Of a DNA stretch of 40,591 nucleotides, positions 15,231 through 17,089 are shown in pieces. Numbering within the stretch: position 1 is the first letter of the stretch; each line of letters starts with the position of its first letter. The position numbers and the translations under genes are program-made. A model generated the notes under the pieces. That model saw only the letters and a list, made by a program, of their open reading frames with translations, was not told the origin of the DNA and ran no database searches. Source of the stretch: Bacteroidota bacterium (lineage in GTDB: Bacteria > Bacteroidota > Ignavibacteria > UBA10030 > UBA8401). The stretch spans positions 1-40,591 of the forward strand of contig JABWAK010000015.1 of assembly GCA_013361065.1 (NCBI GenBank), in the 5' to 3' direction.

Positions 15231-15260
15231 TCCCGCAGAACCCGCAGAATAACGCAGAAA
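15231..15260 (-). repeat. 30-nt phased GCAGAA/TTCTGCG repeat, copy 1 (inverted)
   Basis: Three CGCAGAA units at 10-nt steps. Read on the minus strand this is three TTCTGCG heptamers ending in GGGA, and it aligns without gaps to the plus-strand copies at 15906-15935 and 16013-16042. It lies upstream of the GxxExxY gene in the opposite orientation to the downstream copies. Confidence 0.75.
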
Positions 15261-15453
15261 TAGAAAAGGATAAACTTATAATGCCAGATCAGTTCATTTC
15301 ATTGGTTTTCCGACGTGTGAAGCAGAACGCATAGAAGAGAACTTCACCGTAAAAAGCGAAAACCAACACTATCAGGTAACTCCGGAACAATCACCCAATA
15401 CAGCAATGGAAATGACTTGGATGATTCAACGAGAATGTACACAATGTCTTGTT

Positions 15454-15461
15454 GGAGGAGG
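15454..15461 (+). promoter_or_regulatory. Strong ribosome-binding site of the GxxExxY gene
   Basis: GGAGGAGG ends 6 nt before the ATG at 15468. It decides the start: an in-frame TTG at 15417 would add 17 residues outside the family fold. Confidence 0.75.
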
Positions 15462-15467
15462 ACCACA

Positions 15468-15845
15468 ATGACAGAAAATGAACTATCGTTTGTCGCGCGG
15501 GGTGCGATCTTTACGGTATTTAAAACATTGGGGCCGGGATTACTGGAATCTGTTTATGAAAGCGCCTTAACCGAGGAGCTCATACGACGAAGGGTCGGCG
15601 TGCGAAGACAAGTGCCGATCCCGGTGTACTATGGGGAGACAACGCTGGATGTAGGATTCCGTCTGGACCTTCTGCTGGACGACAAGGTGATCATTGAAAT
15701 AAAATCTGTAGATTCCCTGACTTCAGTACACCACAAACAGATCATCACATATCTCCGTTTATCGGGGATAAAACTAGGTTTGCTCGTTAACTTCAATACT
15801 ACTGATGTCTCAAAAACTATCTTCCGTAAAGTGAATGGTCTATAA
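15468..15845 (+). CDS. GxxExxY protein, PD-(D/E)XK nuclease superfamily (PDDEXK_3)
   Basis: A 125-aa protein with the family signature G24-P-G-L-L-E27-S-V-Y30 near the N-terminus. The predicted nuclease core follows: DVGFRLDLLLDDKVIIEIKSV, supplying Asp67 and the E77-I-K79 pair, then HHKQIITYLRLSGIKLGLLVNFN. Members are frequent in environmental genomes but their biochemical activity is largely untested; nuclease function is inferred from the fold. The gene is more A+T-rich than its neighbours and is enclosed by oppositely oriented copies of a 30-nt repeat (15231-15260 and 15906-15935), which suggests acquisition as a small unit. No partner antitoxin, methylase or transposase is adjacent. Confidence 0.9.
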   Translation: MTENELSFVARGAIFTVFKTLGPGLLESVYESALTEELIRRRVGVRRQVPIPVYYGETTLDVGFRLDLLLDDKVIIEIKSVDSLTSVHHKQIITYLRLSGIKLGLLVNFNTTDVSKTIFRKVNGL

Positions 15846-15905
15846 TTTCTTTCCTGTTTTCATCTTACAATAGAGAATCAACGTCATTCAAGTATTTTTA
15901 TTATC

Positions 15906-15935
15906 TTTCTGCGGTGTTCTGCGTGTTCGGCGGGA
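15906..15935 (+). repeat. 30-nt phased TTCTGCG repeat, copy 2
   Basis: TTTCTGCG, then TTCTGCG and TTCGGCG at 10-nt steps, then GGGA; a trailing GCAC is shared with copy 3 at 16013-16042. It starts 60 bp after the GxxExxY stop. Confidence 0.75.
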
Positions 15936-16012
15936 GCACTCTTGTTCTCGTCATTGTGTTATGTCGTGCATAGCAAACAGGGTTTTTCATCATTCAGATT
16001 CCTTTCCCTTTC

Positions 16013-16042
16013 TTTCTGCGGGGTTCTGCGTATTCTGCGGGA
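16013..16042 (+). repeat. 30-nt phased TTCTGCG repeat, copy 3, overlapping the ribosome-binding site of the LytS gene
   Basis: Same layout as copy 2, 107 bp further on, with the shared tail GGGAGCAC (16039-16046). The GGGAG of this tail lies 5 nt before the GTG start of the kinase at 16049 and would serve as its Shine-Dalgarno sequence. Confidence 0.75.
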
Positions 16043-16048
16043 GCACAT

Positions 16049-17089
16049 GTGACTGAATATGAGATCGATACGGAACTGAACGACACCGTCATCCGGCTGG
16101 TGCTGATACCGTTCTTCGGGCTGGTCATTCCGAACCTCACCGGGATGATCGACAACGGTGCCCATACACCGGCGGAACTGGCAGCGGCGTACCTCTATTT
16201 CATCTTCATCGCGTTCGCCATCTGGCAGGGGAACCGGTACCTCCTCTTCCGGCTCCGGCTCCGTTTCTCCTGGCTCAGCCAGCCGGTCTACAAAGTGCTC
16301 GCGCTGGTGGTCTCCAACATCTTCTACACCATCCCGATCTCCGTGGGACTGATGACCATGTGGTACGTGTTCGCACGGCATGCGGCGGCCGACTGGGATG
16401 TCATCTTCAAGGCGACCGCGCTCTGCGTGGTGTGCGTCGTCTTCATCACCCATACCTATGAGACGGTCTTCCTCATCAAGAGCTGGGGCACGGACCGGTC
16501 CAAAAGCGAGGAACTGGCGAAAGCGAAGATGGAAGCGGAACTGGAAGCGCTGAAGAACCAGATCGATCCGCACTTCCTCTTCAACTCGCTCAACACCCTC
16601 TCCCACCTGATCGGGCAGGACCCGCAAAAGGCGAAGCAGTTCAATGACGACCTGGCGGAGGTGTACCGGTACATCCTCTCCAACAAGGACCGGAACCTCG
16701 TCCTGCTGAGCGAGGAACTGCTGTTCGCGGAACGCTACTTCTCCCTGCTCCGCATCCGGTTCGGCAGCGCCGTCGTGCTGACGGTGGAGGGCGCCGGCAG
16801 TGCAGACGACCTGCTCATCCCGCCGATCTCGCTGCAGATCCTGCTGGAGAATGCCGTGAAGCATAACGCCTTCTCGGAAGAGGACCCGCTCCGCATCACT
16901 GTTCAGATACACGATGCGGCGATGACCGTGACGAATGACCGGCGGAACAAAACGACCGCGGGCACCTCTTCCGGTATCGGTCTGCGCAATCTCCGGGACC
17001 GGTACCGTCTCATCACCGGACAGGATCCCGCCATTCAGGATGGCGACGGCCGGTTCACCGTCACACTGCCGCTGCTGAGGACGACATGA
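16049..17089 (+). CDS. LytS-type (His_kinase family) membrane sensor histidine kinase
   Basis: A 346-aa kinase with four N-terminal membrane helices (about 15-33, 46-60, 83-104 and 121-145) and no extracytoplasmic sensor domain. A short coiled coil (EELAKAKMEAELEALKNQ) leads into the His_kinase motif QIDPHFLFNSLNTLSHL with phospho-acceptor His175. The N-box is LLENAVKHN and the ATP lid is GIGLRNLRDRY. The GTG at 16049 is the only sensible start: the frame upstream is open to 15974 but has no ATG or GTG, and reads through the repeat. A minimal ATG-TGA frame (16047-16052) overlaps the start. The stop overlaps the next ATG by 4 nt (ATGA), so translation with the LytTR regulator is coupled. Confidence 0.92.
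   Translation: MTEYEIDTELNDTVIRLVLIPFFGLVIPNLTGMIDNGAHTPAELAAAYLYFIFIAFAIWQGNRYLLFRLRLRFSWLSQPVYKVLALVVSNIFYTIPISVGLMTMWYVFARHAAADWDVIFKATALCVVCVVFITHTYETVFLIKSWGTDRSKSEELAKAKMEAELEALKNQIDPHFLFNSLNTLSHLIGQDPQKAKQFNDDLAEVYRYILSNKDRNLVLLSEELLFAERYFSLLRIRFGSAVVLTVEGAGSADDLLIPPISLQILLENAVKHNAFSEEDPLRITVQIHDAAMTVTNDRRNKTTAGTSSGIGLRNLRDRYRLITGQDPAIQDGDGRFTVTLPLLRTT

Follow-up and report, generated by a model that had tools for sequence, protein, structure and literature searches.

GxxExxY nuclease-like genes and their inverted periodic arms, a probable and apparently undescribed, compact kind of mobile DNA

Genes of the GxxExxY family are commonly bracketed by inverted arrays of short repeated units, referred to here as arms. 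Gene and arms together make up a single block, which is seen at differing sites, is jointly missing from sister genomes and decays in place. That the gene and its repeats are inherited, moved and lost together suggests mobile DNA, apparently of a compact and undescribed kind. When the open-licence literature was searched by family name, Pfam accession and repeat strings, no paper was found that describes a link between GxxExxY and a repeat, an absence that is no proof. The block was recognised in a 40,591-nt stretch of DNA from a Bacteroidota genome, hereafter the window, and was then compared across relatives, the phylum and more distant lineages.

The unit in the window and its protein

An initial annotation of the window had described three copies of a 30-nt repeat, one inverted on the 5' side of a GxxExxY-like gene and two on its 3' side; the positions, the orientations and the gapless alignment of the copies were all confirmed, as was the bracketing of an intact gene (Table 1). 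The description of each copy as three TTCTGCG heptamers is right for the left and the second right arms and wrong for the middle copy, which deviates in its third unit, and the claimed 10-nt spacing throughout does not hold since within every copy the heptamers begin at positions 2, 12 and 21. The gene is richer in A+T than its surroundings, as had been stated, with a G+C content of 45.0% for the gene and 43.5% for the arm-to-arm stretch against 58.1% for the window.

Table 1. Features of the arm-bounded unit, with positions in the window
Feature	Positions	Strand	Remarks
Left arm	15231-15260	minus	three TTCTGCG units, steps 10 + 9; GGGA outer end at the lower-coordinate side
Ribosome-binding site of the GxxExxY gene	15454-15461	plus	GGAGGAGG; direct reading of the sequence
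GxxExxY gene	15468-15845	plus	ATG at 15468, stop at 15845; 125 aa; predicted PD-(D/E)XK nuclease, conserved D67/E77/K79
First right arm	15906-15935	plus	third unit TTCGGCG
Second right arm	16013-16042	plus	first right arm duplicated 107 nt downstream; best partner of the left arm

The best inverted repeat of the region is formed by the left and the second right arms (30 nt, 83% complementary), and the exact motif TTCTGCG-N3-TTCTGCG has three occurrences in the window, every one of them inside these arms. The sole gene of the unit encodes a PDDEXK_3 protein, and a transposase is absent from it. The GTG start of a LytS-like histidine kinase gene follows the outer end of the second right arm (GCGGGAG) at the distance of a ribosome-binding site (16037-16051), and the same arrangement is found in genome G018; from this position, the second right arm may act as a translation signal for the kinase. 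The GxxExxY gene is present in all four genomes having the window's gene pair, with arms of the TTCTGCG type in G000 and G018 and of the ATCTGCG type in G013 and G014. At the window-orthologous locus of G013 (L257, G013:C41), about seven tandem gene-less hairpins, each a pair of opposed arms joined by a short loop, lie between a DUF1761 gene and the GxxExxY gene.

The GxxExxY-like identity of the protein was borne out by profile matches well above the respective cut-offs, i.e., 129 bits for TIGR04256 (cut-off 35) and 128 bits for PF13366 PDDEXK_3 (cut-off 22). Among 76 aligned proteins, residues D67, E77, K79, Q91 and Y95 are near-invariant, and the AlphaFold2 model adopts a PD-(D/E)XK fold (pLDDT 95.7) with SSO0001, a Cas4-family protein, as its closest structural match (Z 9.8), lambda exonuclease, Hjc and restriction enzymes ranking lower. 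On both motif and modelled fold, the protein is confidently predicted to be a member of the PD-(D/E)XK nuclease superfamily. No credible sequence relative of it was found in the PDB. A phage origin was rejected, with GxxExxY matches in none of 50,697 phage records, and relatives occur in only 8 of 72,556 plasmid records; a defence system was likewise discarded, the top PADLOC match being partial (E 0.0064).

Arms around GxxExxY and four-helix-bundle genes

GxxExxY genes are found in 17 of the 22 genomes of the taxonomic family and, across the phylum, in 122 of the 247 genomes sampled, with up to 12 copies each. A set of 165 distinct, full-length loci was collected. In the host genome, each of the three GxxExxY genes has inverted periodic arms, minus upstream and plus downstream, with unit steps of about 10, 9 and 8 at the three loci. 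An arm typically comprises two to four units of the form TYYGYG (Y being C or T) at a spacing of 8-12 nt. Under a strict array setting and for the 157 genes with full flanks, minus-strand TYYGYG arrays were found upstream of 101 (64%) and plus-strand arrays downstream of 83 (53%), against 21 and 23 loci for the opposite orientations and 16 and 12 of 810 control windows (about 2%); at this setting, the array is missing on one side in about one third to one half of the loci. When 400 nt upstream, in reverse complement, were aligned with 400 nt downstream, a score of at least 18 was reached at 78% of 148 loci, compared with 11.5% for arms mispaired between loci and 10.9% in control windows. The association of the gene with inverted repeats is real and general, inverted arrays are far commoner near GxxExxY genes than in control windows, and the equal frequency that the initial annotation had named as refuting its reading was not observed.

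The arms of a given locus are matched to each other in sequence as well as in spacing. Over all loci, steps of 8, 9, 10, 11 and 12 nt were counted 80, 106, 128, 35 and 14 times, respectively, and the left and right steps of one locus agree (r=0.90), being equal in 68% of cases versus 20% after shuffling. The suggestion that helical phasing places every unit on the same helix face therefore fails in general, the step being 10 + 9 in the window and varying from 8 to 12 between loci. The arrays are non-palindromic and without GTAG; beyond the outermost unit, G is enriched and followed by A-rich sequence, which differs from what follows the inner units, and the arm thus has polarity.

Arm type tracks the GxxExxY lineage and not the host genome. 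Arm distance climbs from 1.24 to 2.85 with GxxExxY protein distance (Mantel p=0.002), and is 1.28 for the same site in different genomes versus 2.78 for different sites in one genome and 2.69 for unrelated arms, bearing in mind that some low-distance pairs of the non-orthologous class may be unrecognised orthologues. Within one genome, no correlation between arm distance and protein distance was found (p=0.54, 77 pairs), so the lineage signal stems from between-genome comparisons.

Matched arms also occur at loci of Zetaproteobacteria, Desulfuromonas, Patescibacteria and two Methanosarcinales archaea, as well as in Bacteroides finegoldii and Bernardetia, on records from a plasmid collection; in Gemmatirosa (Gemmatimonadota), a full hairpin flanks the gene on either side. 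In Sphingomonas parapaucimobilis (L379), only the left arm is found, the GxxExxY gene there interrupting the fatty-acid operon between fabD and fabG, with gaps of 2-33 nt, and on a plasmid of Fusobacteria bacterium ZRK30 (L385) arm-like blocks flank the gene as direct, not inverted, copies. In G217 (L210), a tandem GxxExxY pair lies in a duplicated block that is about 92% identical.

Arms exist away from the gene too. With at most one mismatch, the motif TTCTGCG-N3-TTCTGCG is found 40 times in the host genome and its reversed control once, which excludes chance; most are solo arms in a single orientation, within mosaics of other periodic words. Periodic words and palindromes lie beside the solo arms (L004-L033), e.g., CAGCTATCAGCTTTCAG, AATTTGTAATTTG, CATTGTCAATTGTC and GGACGGGATGNCATCCCGTCC, and these other intergenic words of the host are probably other element families. 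By hand tally from per-genome tables, a strict three-unit period-9 pattern amounts to 270 copies in 45 of the 122 GxxExxY-bearing genomes and to 48 copies, 24 of them in one genome, in 20 of the 125 that lack the family, the reversed control giving about 30 copies over all 247 genomes. In G177 (L277), 24 three-unit arrays are found and a TIGR04256 match is absent, for which either a divergent enzyme or a lost gene may account.

A second, unrelated family shares this architecture. TIGR02436 four-helix-bundle (S23-like) genes, present in 18 of the 22 genomes of the taxonomic family with up to 16 copies, have matched inverted short-period arms made of other words, including CCTAATGCCTAATG, CTTATTACTTATAACTT and GCTGATAGCTGACAGCT, at loci such as L331, L335, L348, L350 and L356. 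Their arms align with a score of at least 18 for 67% of 18 located genes versus 8% when mispaired, some of the weaker alignments looking non-periodic, and TYYGYG arrays were found at none of 26 such loci. With an architecture that is shared and a word that is specific to the protein family, a relation between protein and arm is favoured over a common host process, which falls short of proof.

These features bear on two readings in which the protein would not act on the arms. In one, which is judged unlikely, the element would work at the RNA level like the 23S rRNA intervening sequence, the arms pairing in the transcript as a long stem to be processed (e.g., by RNase III), whereby insertion into operons would be tolerated, the match between arms would come from selection on base-pairing and the protein would be a passenger. 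The complementarity of the arms at each locus, the many insertions between co-directional genes, a marginal skew toward mismatches that keep G.U (78 versus 54 reverse, p=0.045) and the similar architecture at S23-like genes all fit such a stem, which nonetheless leaves unexplained why short units are repeated, why solo arms occur in a single orientation and why each protein family has a word of its own. In the other, held to be improbable to a like degree, GxxExxY and four-helix-bundle genes would merely be carried by periodic-arm elements that some other enzyme or a host process mobilises; a unit devoid of transposase and a comparable architecture around two unrelated proteins speak for such carriage, and words that differ by protein family and track the protein lineage rather than the host genome speak against it.

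Insertion, residence and decay

Within the window's genus, one element is found at different sites in two genomes, i.e., as L246 in G015 and as L243 in G017, with a gene nucleotide identity of 0.898. The similarity starts at GCCACAAAG and stops at CTTTGTGGC, namely at the outer arm ends, beyond which the flanking sequences are unrelated, in keeping with the unit-like behaviour initially proposed. Only G015 has the element at site A, before a deoxyhypusine-synthase-like gene, where G016, G017, G018, G019, G021 and G000 have a short spacer devoid of arms. At site B, before the alanine dehydrogenase gene, only G017 has it, the site being empty, with no arms, in G015, G018, G019, G021 and G000. 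The empty sites that the initial annotation had proposed to look for in sister genomes thus exist, and the repeats are absent from them; its refuting condition, that orthologous sites without the gene keep the repeats, does not hold at sites A and B. Sites elsewhere that keep arms without the gene look like decayed insertions. Since the empty alleles at these two sites carry no arm, homing through recombination into pre-existing arms was rejected. Between L246 and L243, the dS of the element is 0.46, compared with 0.54, 0.99, 1.09 and 1.47 for four core genes of the same genomes. Neither site gave a clean target-site duplication: at site A a possible imperfect one of 14 nt was seen, at site B none, and the 20-40 nt that flank the arms of site A have no counterpart in the empty site or in the other copy.

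Decay follows a route in which the gene is lost and arms are left behind. At the rpmE site, which is empty in members of other genera, the element is intact in G000, G019 and G021, whereas both arms persist without the gene in G016 and G017 and one arm in G015. At the rlmN-adk site, G018, G013 and G010 have the gene, which G000 and others lack. Same-site GxxExxY genes are mostly monophyletic, from which it follows that copies stay in place for long periods, and, together with dN/dS values of 0.02-0.10 (14 pairs), that movement is rare; most copies look vertically resident. A resident host gene with arms that serve a host function as regulatory or structural sites, rather than bounding a mobile unit, would share the low dN/dS and the monophyly of same-site genes but is very improbable given one element at two sites, empty and arm-less sites in congeners, tandem arm duplications, gene-less remnants and a copy number of 0 to 12 among relatives.

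Comparison with known systems, proposed mechanism and meaning

Among known systems, the closest likeness is with the REPtron (tnpA_REP/RAYT), outlined in PMC8266576, in which a small nuclease-type gene also lies between inverted short repeats, with solo or tandem non-autonomous intergenic copies and long vertical residence. The enzyme is however an HuH Y1 protein there and of PD-(D/E)XK fold here, and the repeats are GTAG-headed palindromes there and unit arrays of variable step here. With neither an HuH Y1 transposase gene nor a GTAG-headed palindrome, the GxxExxY element is not a member of REP/RAYT and, as enzyme family and repeat type both differ, is better seen as a functional analogue. 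The 23S rRNA intervening sequence with its S23 gene (PMC4990558) is similarly short, with inverted ends, a single small gene and horizontal acquisition followed by vertical retention, but the GxxExxY element lies between protein genes and encodes PDDEXK_3, not an S23 four-helix bundle, and is excluded from that group on both grounds. Insertion sequences and MITEs share inverted ends, gene-less deletion derivatives and presence or absence between sister genomes; the GxxExxY unit is set apart by its periodic-unit ends, perhaps by the want of a clean target-site duplication, and by a gene content without transposase, which speaks against the assignment. Finally, a homing endonuclease gene is also a small free-standing nuclease gene that spreads, but the arms move along with the GxxExxY gene and the empty target has no repeat, i.e., the cognate site is absent from the empty alleles at two sites, and this identity was discarded as well.

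The explanation regarded as probable, with moderate confidence, is that of a compact and mostly resident mobile unit, bounded by arms on which its own PD-(D/E)XK protein probably acts. The GxxExxY protein would recognise these arms and cut or nick there, and host repair or replication would finish the insertion into intergenic DNA hitherto devoid of arms; solo arms and gene-less hairpins would be non-autonomous derivatives, as REP is for RAYT. Following insertion, most copies would remain long in place under strong purifying selection, which implies either that rare transposition is enough or that the nuclease has a further use. This explanation of an arm-bounded mobile unit draws on (i) orientation-specific arrays, the locus-specific match of left and right and an arm type that tracks the protein and not the host, (ii) one element at two sites, similar only as far as the arms, and the sites of congeners empty and arm-less, (iii) the lower dS of the element than of core genes, (iv) gene-less remnants with arms, gene-less hairpins and the co-occurrence of arrays and gene over 247 genomes, and (v) near-invariant catalytic residues, a confident PD-(D/E)XK model and four-helix-bundle loci devoid of TYYGYG. 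What counts against it is the want of a clean target-site duplication, the unmatched nucleotides at site A, the rarity of movement, the one-sided arrays, the two plasmid-record loci with a single arm or with direct copies and the arrays of G177 without TIGR04256.

More tentatively, and as a possibility we would rate below the explanation for GxxExxY itself, bacteria and archaea may share a widespread class of minimal mobile elements, each consisting of one small protein gene and matched inverted short-period arms with a protein-specific word, comprising at least the GxxExxY and four-helix-bundle families; each protein would recognise its own arms and propagate them, and many intergenic short-period repeats would be their gene-less offspring.

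GxxExxY is a very common family without known role, and its link with the arms yields a candidate substrate for the nuclease. Periodic intergenic repeats of the CTCTGTG/CTCTGCG type dot many of the same genomes, with no description in the papers searched, and the link would explain them. If true, this would add a strategy of mobile elements, with a PD-(D/E)XK nuclease in place of a transposase, in several phyla and in archaea.
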